A DNA stretch of 41,758 nt from Gammaproteobacteria bacterium. Its GTDB lineage: Bacteria > Pseudomonadota > Gammaproteobacteria > GCA-001735895. Position numbers and translations under genes: made by a program. Shown here in pieces: positions 34,299 to 41,758 of the stretch. The notes under the pieces were generated by a model. It was not told the DNA's origin and did no database searches. It saw nothing but the letters and a program-made list of their open reading frames with translations. The stretch lies in the NCBI GenBank assembly GCA_009937625.1, contig JAACFA010000015.1, forward strand, positions 1 through 41,758. Reading direction: 5' to 3'. Numbering within the stretch: the first letter of the stretch is position 1; each line of letters starts with the position of its first letter.

Positions 34299-34822
34299 AC
34301 ACGCCAAGTTACAATCAACAATCGGGCATGGCCCTGATTATCAGCCTGATCATTCTGATCTCGATGACGATACTCGGCGTCGCCTCGATGCAGGCCACGC
34401 GCACCGAGGTCAGCATGGCGGGCAACCAGCGCGAGGCAGGATTGAGTTTCAACGCGACCGAAGCCGGATTAAGCGCGGCCGAGAGGTACATCGAGGACTC
34501 CATTTCGAAAACCGCCTACAACGATCCGGCCATCGGATTGTACGACCGGCTCGAAACGGACCCCGATTACGGCGACAGCACGGTCTGGGACGCTTCCCAG
34601 ATCGCGACGACGACCCTGCCCTTTGTCACCGAACAGCCCCGGTTCATCATCAAGTATCTCGGCGATCGTTCGCAAAACGAAGTCGCGGCGGTCAACATAG
34701 GCGGTTACGGAAGCAGCCAACCGGGTAAAACCGTATCCAACTTCCGGGTGACCTCGAGGGGAGTGGGGCAGACTGCCAATTCATTCCGCTTCATCCAGTC
34801 ATATTATGGAAAAGAGTTCTAG
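34295..34822 (+). CDS. pilX: Type IV minor pilin PilX
   Basis: A 175-residue PilX-type protein. It starts 'MNTPSYNQQSGMALIISLII', lacking Glu at mature position 5, as is common for PilX/GspK-like subunits, and then 'SMQATRTEVSMAGNQREAGLSFNATEAGL' (within residues 34-65), the PilX N-terminal signature. The ATG at 34295 overlaps the pilW stop by 4 nt; longer in-frame starts would lie inside pilW. The stop (34822) is 17 nt before the pilY1 start. It likely caps the minor-pilin complex. Confidence 0.87.
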   Translation: MNTPSYNQQSGMALIISLIILISMTILGVASMQATRTEVSMAGNQREAGLSFNATEAGLSAAERYIEDSISKTAYNDPAIGLYDRLETDPDYGDSTVWDASQIATTTLPFVTEQPRFIIKYLGDRSQNEVAAVNIGGYGSSQPGKTVSNFRVTSRGVGQTANSFRFIQSYYGKEF

Positions 34823-34838
34823 AATCAGGAGAATTCGC

Positions 34839-37800
34839 ATGATTAATTTGTCAAACGTAAAGCTTTCACGGTCGCTGTTGGCCGCCGCGATCACCGTAAT
34901 GTCATTGCACAACGCACAGGCCGCGCCCGGAAACCTGCCCACCGCGCCCCTGTTCCTGTCAACCATCGTCGAACCCAACGTGTTCTTTACCCTCGACGAC
35001 TCGGGCAGCATGGACTGGGAACCGATGATGTCGAGCACGACCGGGCTGGCCACTGGCAGCGGTCTGCCTTTTATCGACGGCAGACTCCGCGGCTACTACA
35101 CTCCGACTTTTAATCACCTCTATGATGCGAGCGGTGAATTTATCTATGTCCTGCCCCCGGCCGACGGCACACATGCTGAATGGGACAAGACATGGGTGGT
35201 GCGCAATCACCTCGGGAACCGGAGCTATTACAATCCAAATATTACATACCAGCCGTGGCCGGGAACCAACGCGGATGGCTCTCCGATGTACGAGGACGCC
35301 GATCCAACCGAGGCGCTGGAGCATCCCGACATACCAAGATCCGCCGGCGGCGAGTGGGTTAACCTGCTCCTCGACCATACGTATACCGAACCCACCGCCG
35401 GCTCCGGCGGCACAGCAACCGCGGGCACCACTTCGACGACCTATTATATTCCGACCTACTACAGATGGTCCCCCGCAGACGGCGACGGCGATGGCGTTAT
35501 CGAGGAATCCGACCTGGTTGGAGCCGCCGTGCTCGCTGCCAGGGTTGAGATTCCGAGAGACGCGACAGATCCCGAGATGATCAATTTCGCCAACTGGTTT
35601 CAGTACTACCGTTCGAGGATGAATGCAACCAAGTCGGTTGTGGGCGGCACGATTAATAATACCGATGCTTCGCGTATGGGCATTCGCATGTACAACACCG
35701 GCCAGATGGAAGACCTCGCAACCATGAGCGATACCGCCCTGAAACGCACGCTACTCCGGGATCTCTACTCGTTTGTGACCCCGGCGAGGGGAACCCCGGC
35801 AAGGACCGCGCTGGAGGCGACCGGTGATTATTTTGCCGACAACACTAGCGGCGCTATCCTGAGCGCGGCCGAGGGCGGGGAATGTCAACAGAACTTCAAC
35901 CTGCTGATGTCGGACGGTTTCTGGAACGGCGGCACCGTCCCTTCTGTCGGCAATACCGATACGGATGGTGCAGGCCCGTACGACGGTAACGCGGCTCAGT
36001 CAAACGATGGCGGTAACTACGCGGATGCTTACAGCAACACCCTGGCCGACGTCGCAATGGATAACTACGAGAACGATTTGCGCACCGACCTTGCCGACCT
36101 GGTGCCTACCCAGACCGGCATTGACGAAGCCGATCACCAGCACCTGGTAACCTTTACCATTGGGTTTGGCTTGAATGGTACGCTCGATCCCTCGGTCGAT
36201 GATCCGCTTGCGGTCGGTTTTACCTGGCCCGAACCCATCAGCAACAGTATTACCACGGTCGACGACATGTGGCATGCCGCCTACAACGGGCGCGGCCGGT
36301 ATCTCAGCGCCCAGAATCCGGAAGAGTTACAGAGGTCGATGTCGGCGGCGATTAACGATATCGCGCAACGCACAGGCACCGCAGCCGCGGTTGCCATCAA
36401 CTCGGCCCAGCTCAGTACCGAGTCGGTAGTCTACCTGGCTCAGTTCAACTCCAATCGCTGGCAGGGCGATATACTCGCCTTCCCGATCGTCGACACGGAC
36501 ACCGGCGAACTCTCCGCGGCACCCAAGTGGAGCGCGGCATCGGATCTGAACGCACGCGACATCGCTACTAAGCCCAGGATCATGATGACGCTCAACGACG
36601 CGCTGCTCGAACCCGACGGCGTCGCGTTCACCTGGTCCGATATCTCGCCCAGCATGATGAATGACCTACTGACCAATCCGACCGGGGGAACCGACCCCGC
36701 TGCGGTCGGCCAGGCGCGACTCGATTTCATTCGTGGCGATCGCAGCAACGAGGGCACCCTCTTCCGTTCGCGCGCGTCGATGCTGGCCGATATCGTCAAC
36801 TCCGGCCCCGTGTTCGTCGGCCCGCCGGGATTGAGCTGGCCCGACGTCGCACCGTTTCCGGAAGACGGCGCGGCCTATTCGGAATTCAAGAACGGTCCCG
36901 CCGCGAACCGCAAGAAAGTCGTTTATGCCGGCTCCAATGACGGCTTGATGCACGCCTTCGACGATGATACGGGCGAAGAACTGTTTGCCTACGTGCCAAA
37001 CCTGCTGAGCTCCAGCGGCATCGGCGAAGGCCTGCACTACCTTACAGACCCCAACTACGGGCACCGGTTTTACGTCGATCAGACGCCGACGCTGTCGGAT
37101 GTTTACATCTCCTCGGGCAGCAGCACCGAGTGGCATACCGTCCTGGTGGGTGCCCTGCGCGGCGGTGGACGCGGATTGTTCGCGCTCAACGTTACCGACC
37201 CGTCGCTGTTCCAGGAAGCCAGTGCCGACAATGTCGTTCTGTGGGAGTTCAGCAACGCAGACGATCCCGATCTCGGCTACACCTACAGCCGCCCGTTCAT
37301 CGCGCTGACCAACGCCGGCACCTGGGTCGCGATCTTCGGCAACGGCTACAACGATCTCGGCAGCGGCGAAGCCAGCCTGTTCATCGTCGATATCGAGGCG
37401 GGCGCGGACGGAGAATGGCAGGCCGGGGACTACGTGAAAATTTCGACCGGCATCGGCACGCCCGCCGACCGCAACGGCATGGCGACACCCGCGCTGGCCG
37501 ATGTCGACGGTAACGGTACCGTCGACCTGGTTTATGCCGGCGACCTTCGCGGCAACATGTGGGTCTTCGACCTGAGCGACACCAATTCCAATTTCTGGGA
37601 TGTTGCCTACCAGAACGCCGGCAATCCGGAGCCGTTGTTCACGACCCCGGCCAATCAGCCGATCACCGCGAAACCGGTACTGGCGAAGCACCCGACCCAG
37701 CCCGATTCGGTGAGCCCGTCGAATCAGCCTAACATCATGGTGTTTTTCGGCACCGGACAGTACCTGGTCGATGCAGACAAGTCCAGCACCGACATCCAGT

Positions 37801-38318
37801 CTTTTTACGGCGTCTGGGACAAGGGCGACGCCGGCCTGGATCGCACCGACCTGATCGAGCAAAGCTTCGACACCAGTTTTACGGTCAAGGTGCTGACCCG
37901 CAACCCGGTTGATTACTCGATCGACCACGGCTGGTATTTAGACCTGCCCGAAACCGGGGAACGCGCGGTGACTTCGCCGATCGCAAGAGGCGATGCCGTG
38001 TTCTTTAATTCCTTCGTGCCCGTCGACGATCCGTGCTCGGTCGGCGGTTTCGGCTTCAAGTTCGCGGTCGACATGGCAACAGGTGGATCTCCGCTTGACC
38101 CGGTTTTCGACAGCAATAACGACGGCGTTATCGATGAATATGACACGGTGAGCAACGGCAATGATACCAGTACCATGGTGGCGGTGAGGCAGGAAGGCTT
38201 TCTGCCCGAACCGGTATTTATAGAGGACCTCGCCTTTACCGCCGAAGAGGCAACCAAGGTAAAACCGCTGAAGAAAGTCCCCGAGGGCCGCTTTTCCTGG
38301 CAGGAGTTAATCCAATGA
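34839..38318 (+). CDS. pilY1: Type IV pilus tip adhesin/assembly factor PilY1
   Basis: A secreted protein of 1159 residues. After a signal peptide ('SRSLLAAAITVMSLHNAQA') comes an N-terminal von Willebrand A-like domain with a MIDAS start 'FFTLDDSGSMDW', then a C-terminal PilC/PilY1 beta-propeller ('VVYAGSNDGLMHAFDDDTGE'). Calcium-binding loops of EF-hand pattern are visible near residue 214 (DGDGDGVIEESD), 888 (DVDGNGTVDLVYAGD) and 1091 (DSNNDGVIDEYD). The start at 34839 has AGGAG 7 nt upstream and is preferred over ATG 34806, which lies inside pilX. PilY1 sits on the minor-pilin tip and acts in adhesion, surface sensing and retraction control. It overlaps the pilY2-like gene by 4 nt. Confidence 0.92.
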   Translation: MINLSNVKLSRSLLAAAITVMSLHNAQAAPGNLPTAPLFLSTIVEPNVFFTLDDSGSMDWEPMMSSTTGLATGSGLPFIDGRLRGYYTPTFNHLYDASGEFIYVLPPADGTHAEWDKTWVVRNHLGNRSYYNPNITYQPWPGTNADGSPMYEDADPTEALEHPDIPRSAGGEWVNLLLDHTYTEPTAGSGGTATAGTTSTTYYIPTYYRWSPADGDGDGVIEESDLVGAAVLAARVEIPRDATDPEMINFANWFQYYRSRMNATKSVVGGTINNTDASRMGIRMYNTGQMEDLATMSDTALKRTLLRDLYSFVTPARGTPARTALEATGDYFADNTSGAILSAAEGGECQQNFNLLMSDGFWNGGTVPSVGNTDTDGAGPYDGNAAQSNDGGNYADAYSNTLADVAMDNYENDLRTDLADLVPTQTGIDEADHQHLVTFTIGFGLNGTLDPSVDDPLAVGFTWPEPISNSITTVDDMWHAAYNGRGRYLSAQNPEELQRSMSAAINDIAQRTGTAAAVAINSAQLSTESVVYLAQFNSNRWQGDILAFPIVDTDTGELSAAPKWSAASDLNARDIATKPRIMMTLNDALLEPDGVAFTWSDISPSMMNDLLTNPTGGTDPAAVGQARLDFIRGDRSNEGTLFRSRASMLADIVNSGPVFVGPPGLSWPDVAPFPEDGAAYSEFKNGPAANRKKVVYAGSNDGLMHAFDDDTGEELFAYVPNLLSSSGIGEGLHYLTDPNYGHRFYVDQTPTLSDVYISSGSSTEWHTVLVGALRGGGRGLFALNVTDPSLFQEASADNVVLWEFSNADDPDLGYTYSRPFIALTNAGTWVAIFGNGYNDLGSGEASLFIVDIEAGADGEWQAGDYVKISTGIGTPADRNGMATPALADVDGNGTVDLVYAGDLRGNMWVFDLSDTNSNFWDVAYQNAGNPEPLFTTPANQPITAKPVLAKHPTQPDSVSPSNQPNIMVFFGTGQYLVDADKSSTDIQSFYGVWDKGDAGLDRTDLIEQSFDTSFTVKVLTRNPVDYSIDHGWYLDLPETGERAVTSPIARGDAVFFNSFVPVDDPCSVGGFGFKFAVDMATGGSPLDPVFDSNNDGVIDEYDTVSNGNDTSTMVAVRQEGFLPEPVFIEDLAFTAEEATKVKPLKKVPEGRFSWQELIQ

Positions 38319-38623
38319 AACATTTAAAATCACATCTTATCCGCATTCTCGTTATCGCCGCCCTTACGCTTCCGTGGGCAACCGCGGAAGCTCTGGAAAC
38401 CTTCGAAAGGGCTGGGGTTATTTCCGAGGTTGGTTACGATAACTTTACCGTCCATAACAAAAAATACCGGATCGCCCCCGGGGCCACCTTGAGCAGCAGC
38501 GACCCGAATCGCAGGAAGTTTGCCGATTTCATGAAGGGAGACCAAATCTATTTCAAGGGAAAAATATTAAACGGCGTTAATTACGTTGATAGCATCGTTT
38601 ATATCGTCCCCGTCGCCTCTTAA
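38315..38623 (+). CDS. pilY2: Small exported protein in PilY2 position
   Basis: A 102-residue protein with a signal peptide ('ILVIAALTLPWATAEA') and a small beta-rich domain ('VISEVGYDNFTVHNKKYRI', 'KFADFMKGDQIYFKGKILN'). It overlaps the pilY1 stop by 4 nt and precedes pilE, exactly where pilY2 stands in Pseudomonas. PilY2 proteins are small and poorly conserved; the assignment rests on position, size and the general fold pattern. Its role in pilus biogenesis is not understood. Confidence 0.68.
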   Translation: MKHLKSHLIRILVIAALTLPWATAEALETFERAGVISEVGYDNFTVHNKKYRIAPGATLSSSDPNRRKFADFMKGDQIYFKGKILNGVNYVDSIVYIVPVAS

Positions 38624-38643
38624 TTTCCTGACGGATTATTATT

Positions 38644-39045
38644 ATGAATCATTCAAAGGGTTATAGTCTGATCGAATTAATGATCGTGATCGCAATTGTC
38701 GGCATTCTGTCGGCGGTTGCTTACGGGATGTATACGGACCATGTGATCTCATCGAATCGCACCGAAGCGCGGGCTGCGCTACAGCAGGCGGCCGGCACCC
38801 TGGAAAAATGTAAAAGCCTGTATGGCAACTACAACGCCGCAAACTGTAACTATGCCGATTTCACGAGCGAGTCGAACTATTACGACATCCGGGCCAACGG
38901 CACCATCACCGGTTCGGCATTCACACTAACGGCGACCCCCGCGGTGGGTTCCCGACAGGTTGCCGATACCGAATGCACTTCGCTAACGCTGACTAACGCA
39001 GGAGTCAAGGGCGGCACCGGGACCGATCCTACCGAGTGTTGGTAA
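38644..39045 (+). CDS. pilE: Type IV minor pilin PilE
   Basis: A 133-residue prepilin with a very short leader 'MNHSKG', then 'YSLIELMIVIAIVGILSAVA' with mature Glu5. The globular part carries four cysteines ('EKCKSLYGNYNAANC' and 'DTECTSLTL...TECW') that can form the D-region disulfides. It is the last gene of the operon, 20 nt after the pilY2-like gene, matching the Pseudomonas PilE minor pilin rather than the major pilin. A hairpin follows the stop. Confidence 0.88.
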   Translation: MNHSKGYSLIELMIVIAIVGILSAVAYGMYTDHVISSNRTEARAALQQAAGTLEKCKSLYGNYNAANCNYADFTSESNYYDIRANGTITGSAFTLTATPAVGSRQVADTECTSLTLTNAGVKGGTGTDPTECW

Positions 39046-39137: not shown

Positions 39138-40178
39138 ATGAAAAAAGCAATCGCGCTGATCTCCGGCGGGCTTGATTCTCTGCTCGCCGCCAGGCTGATC
39201 CAGCAACAGGGAATCCACGTCGAGGGAATTAATTTTTACACTGGCTTTTGCGTGGAAGGGCACACTAATGCCATACGCAATCGTGACCGCAGCCGGGTCA
39301 AACGCAATAATGCGCTGTGGGTTGCCGAGCAGCTCGGCATCAAGCTGCACATCATCGACATCGTAGACGAGTACAAGGACGTCGTGATCAACCCGAAACA
39401 CGGCTATGGAGCGAACCTGAATCCCTGCCTGGACTGCAAGATCTTCATGGTGCACAAGGCCTACGAATGGATCCGGGAGCACGGTTTCGATTTCATCATT
39501 ACCGGCGAAGTGGTCGGTCAGCGACCGAAATCGCAGCGCAAGCGCGTGATGCCGGTGATCGCGCATGAATCGGGCGCCGAAGACCTGCTGCTGCGCCCGC
39601 TCAGCGCCAAGAACCTGCCCGAGACGAAGCCCGAACGCGAGGGCTGGGTCGAGCGCGAGGCACTGCGCGACTTCGGCGGGCGTTCGCGCAAACCGCAAAT
39701 GGCGCTGGCAAGGGAATTCGGTTTCGAAGACTATGCCCAGCCGGCCGGCGGTTGCTGCTTTCTCACCGACCAGAGCTACTCGGTCAAACTGCAGGACCTG
39801 TGGGATAACCGCGGCCAACGCGAGTATGAACTCGACGACATCATGCTGCTCAAGGTGGGACGCCATATCCGCCCCAGCAGAGCGTTCAAACTGATCATCG
39901 CGCGCGAGGAGGGCGAAACCAATTTCCTGAGCGGCTATCGCCACCAGTTCCAGACCATCAAGACGGTCAGTCATGCGGGCCCGCTGGCGCTGGTCGAAGG
40001 CGCCCAGCTCGACGCCGCACAGCTCGAACTCGCCTGCGCGATCACCGCACGCTTCAGCCAGGGACGCGATGCCGAATCGGTAGAACTGCGTTTCAGCGAC
40101 CGAGAGCAATCTTCGCGCAGTATTCACGTCAAGCCGCTGGCCGCGGAGCAGATAGAGCAGGACTGGGTTATCGCATGA
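39138..40178 (+). CDS. PP-loop ATPase, MnmA/ThiI-like tRNA thiolase family
   Basis: A 346-residue cytoplasmic protein. The N-terminal PP-loop 'LISGGLDSLLAARL' (SGGLDS at residues 9-14) would adenylate its substrate. Redox-active or metal-binding cysteine pairs are 'NPCLDCK' (Cys97, Cys100) and 'AGGCCFLTD' (Cys206-Cys207). It resembles the MnmA/ThiI-type sulfur-insertion enzymes annotated as tRNA thiolases, but MnmA and ThiI themselves have different domain plans, so its exact tRNA target is unknown. ATGA overlap with the TusA-like gene points to a dedicated sulfur donor. Confidence 0.75.
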   Translation: MKKAIALISGGLDSLLAARLIQQQGIHVEGINFYTGFCVEGHTNAIRNRDRSRVKRNNALWVAEQLGIKLHIIDIVDEYKDVVINPKHGYGANLNPCLDCKIFMVHKAYEWIREHGFDFIITGEVVGQRPKSQRKRVMPVIAHESGAEDLLLRPLSAKNLPETKPEREGWVEREALRDFGGRSRKPQMALAREFGFEDYAQPAGGCCFLTDQSYSVKLQDLWDNRGQREYELDDIMLLKVGRHIRPSRAFKLIIAREEGETNFLSGYRHQFQTIKTVSHAGPLALVEGAQLDAAQLELACAITARFSQGRDAESVELRFSDREQSSRSIHVKPLAAEQIEQDWVIA

Positions 40179-40411
40179 ACGACATCGTCGAAGTAGATGC
40201 GCGTCGACTGTTCTGCCCGCTGCCGGTAATCCGCCTGCAAAACAACATCAACAAAAGCCCGCCGGGCACCCGGGTTCGCATCGTCAGTACCGATCCGGGC
40301 AGCATGAACGACATTCCCACCTGGTGTCGCATCAACGGCCACCAGGTACTGGAAAGCGTCGAGCGGGACCAGGAGTTCGTCTTTCTGGTGCAGAAAGGCG
40401 ATGGGTCCTGA
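40175..40411 (+). CDS. tusA: TusA-family sulfur carrier protein
   Basis: A 78-residue TusA-type protein with the persulfide cysteine in 'RRLFCPLPVIRLQ' (Cys14). TusA passes sulfur from a desulfurase to acceptors such as tRNA thiolases. It overlaps the PP-loop gene upstream by 4 nt and the CDF gene downstream by 11 nt. The position suggests it delivers sulfur to the PP-loop enzyme rather than acting as the housekeeping TusA-BCDE relay, of which no other part is visible. The symbol names the family; a TusA paralogue is quite possible. Confidence 0.83.
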   Translation: MNDIVEVDARRLFCPLPVIRLQNNINKSPPGTRVRIVSTDPGSMNDIPTWCRINGHQVLESVERDQEFVFLVQKGDGS

Positions 40412-41534
40412 TCAGCGGCATCGGACCACCCAACGGGTCACGTTGGTCGGGGCCGCGATCAACTGTGGGCTCGCGGCGCTGCAGATAACTTTCGGGCTGC
40501 TCGGAAAGTCGCAGGCACTGCTCGCCGACGGCATGCACACCTTGTCTGATCTGAGCACCGATTTCATCGTCCTGTACGCCTCCAAGCGCGCCTCCAAGGA
40601 AGCGGACGAAGAGCATCCCTACGGCCATGGGCGTATCGAAACCCTGGCCTCGATGCTGTTGGGAGCGATTCTCGCAGCCGTCGGTATCGGCATCGGCGTC
40701 CGCGGGGTCGAGAGTATCCTCGATCCGCGGTTGATCGATCCCGAACCGATAACCATCCTGTTCGCCGCGCTCGCCATTGTCGCCAAGGAAGGACTTTATC
40801 GCTACACCCTGCGCGCCGCGCGAACGGTACATTCGACCCTGCTCGAATCCAACGCCTGGCATCACCGTTCCGACGCACTGTCGTCGATCGTCGTCCTGAT
40901 CGGCATTACGGCGCAAGTGCTCGGTGTGCCCCACATGGATGCGCTGGCGGCAATCATCGTCGGCGCGATGATCCTGTGGATGGGAGTCAGGCTGGGACGC
41001 ATGGCGCTCTCCGAGCTGATCGATACCGGGCTTGATCTCGGGCTGGTAGAGGACCTGCGCAGCGCGATGCTGGCCGACAGCAGCGTGGTCGGCATCCATA
41101 ACCTGCGCACTCGCTCGATGGGCGGCCAGGGTTATATCGACGCCCACATCGAGGTCGATTCGGACCTGACGGTGTCCGAGGCGCACTACATCGCGCATAA
41201 AATCGAGCACCGCCTGAAGAAGCAGTTTCCGAAGATCATCGACGTGCATATCCACATCGATCCGCTGGACGACGCGATCAAGGATTCGGTACTGGCGCGA
41301 TTACCCGAACGCAGCGTAATCGAAGCGGATCTGCAGCAGGCCTGGAGCGGGATCGAGGCCAGCGGGCAGATCGATCAGATCAAGCTGCATTACCTCGACA
41401 AACTGATCGAGATCGACCTGGTGCTGCCGGCCTCGATGTGCAACCACGAACAACGGGACGCGGTCGACAATCTTCAGCAGAGCGCCAGCAATCTCGATTA
41501 CGTTGGCAAGGTCAACATCTACTACCTCAGATAA
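40401..41534 (+). CDS. Cation diffusion facilitator metal transporter
   Basis: A 377-residue CDF exporter: about six transmembrane helices, metal-site motifs 'LLADGMHTLSDLSTDF' and 'WHHRSDALSS', and a cytoplasmic domain from about residue 210 ('RTRSMGGQGYIDAHIEVDSDL', 'DVHIHIDP'). The protein is about 75 residues longer than E. coli FieF; the extra C-terminal part ('LPERSVIEADLQQAW...VNIYYLR') looks like a second alpha/beta domain. Zn, Fe, Mn or Cd are possible substrates. Its start overlaps tusA by 11 nt, so metal export is coupled to sulfur-carrier expression. Confidence 0.87.
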   Translation: MGPDQRHRTTQRVTLVGAAINCGLAALQITFGLLGKSQALLADGMHTLSDLSTDFIVLYASKRASKEADEEHPYGHGRIETLASMLLGAILAAVGIGIGVRGVESILDPRLIDPEPITILFAALAIVAKEGLYRYTLRAARTVHSTLLESNAWHHRSDALSSIVVLIGITAQVLGVPHMDALAAIIVGAMILWMGVRLGRMALSELIDTGLDLGLVEDLRSAMLADSSVVGIHNLRTRSMGGQGYIDAHIEVDSDLTVSEAHYIAHKIEHRLKKQFPKIIDVHIHIDPLDDAIKDSVLARLPERSVIEADLQQAWSGIEASGQIDQIKLHYLDKLIEIDLVLPASMCNHEQRDAVDNLQQSASNLDYVGKVNIYYLR

Positions 41535-41665: not shown

Positions 41666-41758
41666 ATGTCTGCTTCTGATGTGTTGAACAAAATTAACGA
41701 GTACGGCGTTAAATTCGTCGATTTTCGCTTTACCGATACCAAGGGAAAGGAGCAGCAC
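41666..41758 (+). CDS. glnA: Glutamine synthetase, first 31 codons
   Basis: The frame reads '[20 protein letters not shown]' then '[11 protein letters not shown]' to the window edge, nearly the same as the start of E. coli GlnA. Glutamine synthetase assimilates ammonia into glutamine. GGAGA lies 8 nt before the ATG. The gene continues beyond the window. The NtrC-like site and promoter upstream support the identity. Confidence 0.93.

Follow-up and report, generated by a model that had tools for sequence, protein, structure and literature searches.

In this study, a three-gene locus was analysed in a stretch of 41,758 nucleotides (hereafter the window), and its first gene probably encodes the cell's tRNA 4-thiouridine synthase for position 8 (s4U8), an enzyme unlike ThiI, in which a PP-loop domain would be combined with an NFACT-R_2 domain gripping the tRNA, a TusA-family carrier would supply the sulfur, and a conserved cysteine set would hold a cluster or serve in catalysis. 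The CDF metal exporter encoded behind this pair would represent a subfamily of its own, often arranged with the pair and able to work without it. The broader claim of the original prediction, namely that a sulfur-insertion enzyme with its own sulfur carrier acts here on tRNA, was well supported by the domains, the fold, the adjacency of the TusA-family gene and the mutual exclusion with ThiI. The following features were located in the window:

39138..40178, + strand: gene 1, putative PP-loop/NFACT-R tRNA thiolation enzyme, 346 aa (Pfam domains)
39162..39179, + strand: PP-loop motif S9-G-G-L-D-S14 of gene 1, identical in 237/239 aligned sequences, the remaining 2 being gaps
39249..39251, + strand: Cys38 of gene 1, Cys in 236/239
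39426..39437, + strand: CxxC motif of gene 1, Cys97 and Cys100, 239/239
39753..39758, + strand: Cys206-Cys207 of gene 1, C207 in 239/239 and C206 in 236/239
39858..40166, + strand: NFACT-R_2 domain of gene 1, RNA-binding (PF18297, 1e-31)
40175..40178, + strand: ATGA stop/start overlap of genes 1 and 2 (ORF coordinates)
40175..40411, + strand: gene 2, sulfur carrier of the TusA family, 78 aa, containing the C14-P-L-P motif (PF01206)
40401..40411, + strand: 11-nt overlap of genes 2 and 3 (ORF coordinates)
40401..41534, + strand: gene 3, CDF metal exporter, 377 aa (PF01545, PF16916)
41289..41531, + strand: extra C-terminal domain of the CDF protein, approximately aa 297-377 (conserved tail; AlphaFold2 elements)
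41666..41758, + strand: start of glnA (ATG at 41666), cut by the window end, a neighbour outside the system (30-residue translation), named glutamine synthetase from its family

The ORF coordinates bore out the overlaps of 4 nt (ATGA) and 11 nt by which the three frames, all on the + strand, had been said to be joined. For the "thiolase" of the earlier name of gene 1, "thiolation enzyme" is the proper term. When start codons were chosen by script, the 4-nt overlap between the PP-loop and TusA genes recurred in 78 of 194 loci and an overlap between the TusA and CDF genes in 42 of 133; the commonest TusA-CDF spacing was -11 (17/133), and spacings of 10 nt or less, overlaps included, were found in 60/133. 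The overlaps across loci are thus more than chance, and the overlapping frames and short spacings suggest that the CDF gene lies on a shared transcript with TusA.

The neighbourhood of the locus was surveyed in a class sample of 276 genomes, in which the NFACT-R_2 marker was made to stand for the complete PP-loop protein; 140 of the 143 matches were fetched (G000, G031 and a second G120 fragment being left out). Of the 134 loci with room, 115 had the TusA-family gene immediately after gene 1 and 19 did not. Among the 129 loci with room for all three genes, 69 had the trio, 41 had the pair without a CDF gene directly behind (in 2 of them it followed further on) and 19 had neither; one locus was without an intact gene 1. 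In the order of the window, the marker was present in 32 of 41 genomes, and 29 of the 30 loci covered, that of the window's own genome included, carried the CDF gene, the exception being L007. Among the best 80 of 219 database loci, 75 of the 78 with enough room had TusA behind gene 1, and 51 of 67 had the trio, a count in which one locus, L050, was wrongly entered as pair only, owing to a run of N; an apparent CDF-GlnA fusion at the same locus was rejected as an artefact of an ORF read through that run. A phylum sample of 299 genomes, which shares the window's own genome and some others with the class sample, yielded 20 fetched loci outside the class, from 30 genomes found; TusA was behind gene 1 in 16 of these, the CDF gene as well in 5, and neither in 4. 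Conservation of the CDF gene with the pair in other genomes, the point on which the original prediction was to be judged, was therefore found, in that the CDF gene stood behind the pair in 69/129 class and 5/20 outside-class loci, and an obligatory partnership was rejected by these neighbourhood counts and by the genome counts below. One genome (G210) held two loci, L145 and L188, on separate contigs, each with PP-loop, TusA and CDF genes, as a true duplication or a mixture of strains.

The partnership of the exporter was further measured with a profile built from 33 proteins of its subfamily, where proteins scoring from about 385 bits upward, together with 3 shortened ones (G031, G046 and G254), were counted. 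The subfamily was present in 137/276 class genomes, namely in 112/141 with the marker and 25/135 without it, and 3 of these 25 have canonical ThiI. In 7 of 16 examined among the 25, the CDF gene lay directly before glnA without the pair (L337, L342, L344, L346, L348, L351 and L352, in which the PP-loop gene is absent). Moreover, in G068 (L283) the PP-loop gene was a remnant with a stop and both TusA and CDF were intact; G196 and G288, of the same genus, keep the full domain. On the PP-loop tree, CDF adjacency (a CDF gene up to 4.5 kb downstream being counted) changed 26 times by parsimony, against a mean of 68 for shuffled labels; the root of this tree scattered the outside-class sequences over more than one clade, and nothing rests on it. 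The CDF subfamily and the marker are therefore strongly associated, yet each can do without the other: the exporter accompanies the locus, which tolerates its absence.

Of 123 class loci, 85 had glnA downstream, and each two of the three parts of this arrangement outlive the third: PP-TusA-glnA in 29/123, PP-TusA-CDF without glnA in 8/123, and CDF-glnA without the PP-loop gene in the 7 of 16 given above. It is nearly an even chance, though somewhat short of one, that the CDF gene belongs simply to a syntenic block round glnA and that no common function extends past the PP-loop/TusA pair, an explanation compatible with gene 1 being the s4U8 synthase. Against such a block stand the overlapping or closely spaced TusA and CDF frames, which suggest a shared transcript, and the occurrence of the trio both at loci not next to glnA and in genomes outside the class.

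Gene 1 itself was composed of an N-terminal MnmA/ThiI-like PP-loop domain (PF03054, aa 3-135, 6e-13; PF02568, aa 3-155, 5e-10) and a C-terminal NFACT-R_2 domain (PF18297, aa 241-343, 1e-31). The protein begins at the PP-loop, and the Pfam scan gave no THUMP match up to E 0.1, no rhodanese domain and no match to the C-terminal domain of MnmA. Gene 1 also fell below the curated cut-offs for ThiI (TIGR00342, 38.9 vs 264.5 bits) and MnmA (TIGR00420, 47.2 vs 237; NF001138, 51.1 vs 284 bits). An AlphaFold2 model built from 29 sequences (mean pLDDT 86) had YcfA, the ThiI-RNA complex 4kr6 and LarE as top-tied structure matches (Z 15 to 15.6); the match to 4kr6 had Z 15.6, rmsd 2.4 and 160 aligned residues, and that to MnmA 2der had Z 13.2 with 29% identity over 156 aligned residues. 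Furthermore, residues 242-346 of the model matched the NFACT-R region of RqcH (8s1u_H) with Z 14.5 and rmsd 2.1 over 103 aligned residues.

The "two Cys pairs" ascribed earlier to gene 1 are real, C97/C100 lying in PCLDC and C206/C207 in GGCCF. Conservation was assessed in 239 aligned sequences, namely that of the window, 218 taken from class-sample and database-scan loci (an organism may be represented twice among these) and 20 from phylum genomes outside the class. C97, C100 and C207 were Cys in all 239, the window included, and C38 and C206 in 236, Cys38 being missing in L276, L280 and L281. In a visual alignment with the MnmA encoded in the window's own genome, NPC97LDC100 fell on NPDIMC (NPDIMCN there) and GGC206C207F on TGICF (STGICFIG there); likewise by eye, C97/C100 were placed at D99/C102 and C207 at C199 of E. 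coli MnmA, with a Cys at the place of the Asp. Gene 1 thus has the D/C-xxC motif and the second catalytic Cys that are required of MnmA (C97-xx-C100 and C207). PMC11784392 distinguishes a D-type (C-DxxC-C) from a C-type (CC-CxxC-C) MnmA and describes the [4Fe-4S] cluster on Asp99, Cys102 and Cys199 as disputed, even for E. coli MnmA. The C-type Cys set of gene 1 suggests an Fe-S cluster. The three proteins that lack both Cys38 and Cys206 (L276, L280 and L281) form one clade with support 0.98; two of their genomes (G090 and G122) are without a TusA-family gene and the third (G230) has one. Repeated co-loss of these cysteines with TusA was rejected, since one clade amounts to a single event.

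Gene 2 matched PF01206 with 75.3 bits (cut-off 28.6), and its C14, P15 and P17 were invariant in 20 aligned sequences. It fell below the NCBIfam TusA equivalog NF001423 (51.1 vs 78 bits) and is, by its sequence, a TusA-family carrier that is not called a TusA ortholog. It was the sole PF01206 match in the assembly of its own genome, in which two DsrC/TusE-family genes were also found, so that this single carrier may serve MnmA too. Across the class sample, a TusA-family gene was present anywhere in the genome in 139/141 marker-bearing genomes vs 81/135 others (table read by eye; Fisher test), and the two marker genomes in which none was found were G090 and G122.

Indirect evidence on the target base came from ThiI. 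Among the 276 class genomes, the NFACT-R_2 marker was present in 141 (G068, holding just a PP-loop remnant, included), full-length canonical ThiI in 20 (18 over the curated cut-off and 2, G277 and G183, just under it) and both in none (Fisher 2.8e-7, ignoring kinship). By family label, 79 families had the marker and 16 ThiI, with none in common. In the phylum sample, 34 of the 299 genomes matched the gene 1 profile, 98 had ThiI and none had both (hypergeometric 5e-7, ignoring kinship). The labels cluster by family and 115/276 class genomes had neither enzyme, so the exclusion could partly reflect lineage. No full-length ThiI was found in the window's own genome, which has a canonical MnmA; s2U34 is thus already served there, and the idea that gene 1 replaces MnmA was rejected. 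Positional replacement of ThiI beside glnA was also rejected, as no glnA lay in the fetched stretch of 4 ThiI loci.

These data bear on whether gene 1 might thiolate not U8 but a different base of tRNA or rRNA, or else a cofactor, the absence of ThiI in its hosts being an accident of lineage. Such a target would accord with the lack of a THUMP domain in the Pfam scan, with PP-loop scores equally close to MnmA and ThiI, with the high rank, in the structure comparison, of the cofactor-directed PP-loop enzyme LarE, and with the action of the NFACT-R domain of RqcH on the ribosome, as stated in PMC8012679. However, ThiI co-occurred with gene 1 or its marker in no genome of two samples, and MnmA in the same genome takes s2U34, which leaves a target other than U8 unlikely.

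For gene 1 as the s4U8 synthase, the mechanism can be inferred from ThiI and MnmA. The NFACT-R_2 domain would grip the tRNA in place of THUMP, and the PP-loop domain, with ATP, would adenylate U8. A cysteine desulfurase would charge TusA, as PMC11784392 records for the E. coli protein, and TusA would hand the persulfide to gene 1, replacing a rhodanese domain or direct contact with IscS; the sulfur would then attack C4 of U8. By analogy with C-type MnmA, the probable role of Cys97, Cys100 and Cys207 is to bind an Fe-S cluster or to serve in catalysis, and Cys38 and Cys206 may join the sulfur relay. If this is true, about half of the sampled class genomes (marker in 141/276) make s4U8, the base of near-UV sensing, by a THUMP-less, TusA-fed enzyme and not by ThiI. 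It would also offer one way for sulfur to reach PP-loop thiolation enzymes that have no rhodanese domain, and a new case in the debate on whether an Fe-S cluster is required in enzymes of this kind. According to PMC8584467, the sulfur source of ThiI without rhodanese is open.

Compared with ThiI, gene 1 has the same SGGLDS motif and adenylating-domain fold (4kr6 top-tied), but it is without THUMP and rhodanese, carries NFACT-R_2, stays under the TIGR00342 cut-off and never shares a genome with ThiI in the two samples. With C-type MnmA, the tRNA 2-thiouridine(34) synthase, it shares the PP-loop domain and the NP(C/D)xxC ... CF cysteine places, whereas it is without a match to the MnmA C-terminal domain, lies under the cut-offs and has a separate MnmA in its genome. 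Burroughs and Aravind reportedly predicted in 2014 (RNA Biol.) that the NFACT-R domain takes part in a tRNA 4-thiouridylation pathway with PP-loop and TusA-like proteins. That pathway reportedly has the same domain set, NFACT-R fused to PP-loop, with an adjacent TusA, and the prediction is not known to include a CDF protein or a ThiI co-occurrence test. The statement of the original prediction that no system of this makeup was described is consequently right only in part: our literature search found no paper on the trio with CDF, and the PP-loop/NFACT-R/TusA part had reportedly been predicted. Three results are new here: gene 1 and ThiI exclude one another, the C-type Cys set is invariant, and the partnership with CDF, now measured, is loose. 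The same search found PF02568-PF18297 as a mark of 4-thiouridylation in PMC9239080 alone, where it is used in this way for a Thaumarchaeon.

Gene 3 matched PF01545 and ZT_dimer (PF16916) and reached 232 bits with TIGR01297 (cut-off 82), and it fell below the cut-offs of all named CDF subfamilies (FieF, 150 vs 420). H46xxxD50 and H154xxxD158 were invariant in 33 aligned CDF proteins; this site was aligned with D45/D49/H153/D157 of YiiP, and HxxxD/HxxxD would, by the usual rule, be of the zinc type. The motif suggests zinc as the metal, and gene 3 would be a divalent metal exporter that frequently forms a unit with the pair and functions without it. An extra C-terminal domain, as proposed earlier, was confirmed: approximately 80 residues past ZT_dimer were claimed by no Pfam family, the tail recurred in aligned CDF relatives with LPxR and LHYL conserved, and the AlphaFold2 model (pLDDT 83.6) predicted a folded helix-strand-strand-helix-strand unit (H304-314, E326-332, E335-343, H349-363, E368-376) with the element order of the first C-terminal domain (CTD). 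A proven duplication of that domain was rejected, since the sequences themselves did not back it (hhalign probability 1.9%, E 0.026). The best structure match was YiiP 8f6k_B (Z 23.8, rmsd 7.6, 273 aligned), which barely probed the last 80 or so residues. Gene 3 therefore resembles FieF/YiiP-type CDF proteins in transmembrane fold, first CTD and metal-site places, but has H for the first D of site A and an extra folded domain of about 80 residues.

The original prediction had tied the sulfur pair to metal stress; on this reading the three proteins act together as a unit, and the CDF exporter keeps thiophilic metals away from the persulfide or Fe-S chemistry by which tRNA is thiolated. Such a unit would be in keeping with the trio in 69/129 class and 5/20 outside-class loci, some of them with overlapping frames, its persistence without glnA in 8/123, the enrichment of the CDF subfamily in marker genomes (112/141 vs 25/135), a conserved Cys set open to possible metal attack and the disturbed iron homeostasis of an E. 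coli tusA mutant, as PMC11302051 reports. However, the coupling was unsupported by the counts: the pair stood without a CDF gene directly behind it in 41/129 loci, the subfamily occurred in 25 marker-less genomes, 3 with ThiI, the CDF gene preceded glnA alone in 7/16, L283 kept TusA and CDF after decay of its PP-loop gene, and CDF adjacency switched 26 times. Furthermore, glnA, which has no evident thiolation link, was an equally conserved neighbour (85/123). We consider this unit improbable; a link to metal stress is possible, is not needed, and is outweighed by the bond of the sulfur pair. Its fullest form, a metal-guarded tRNA thiolation module that replaces ThiI, with the exporter made in step and the extra CTD sensing metal or docking the pair, is very doubtful.

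Two further observations concern the surroundings. Three CDF-like matches lay within about 11 kb in each of two genomes, at G060:C14 and G191:C35. Just upstream of the locus, at 34806-39045 of the window, the Pfam scan found type IV pilus genes: PilY1 (PF05567), a protein with weak similarity to PilY2, and a pilin that matched the family of DNA-uptake-sequence receptors, ComP_DUS.
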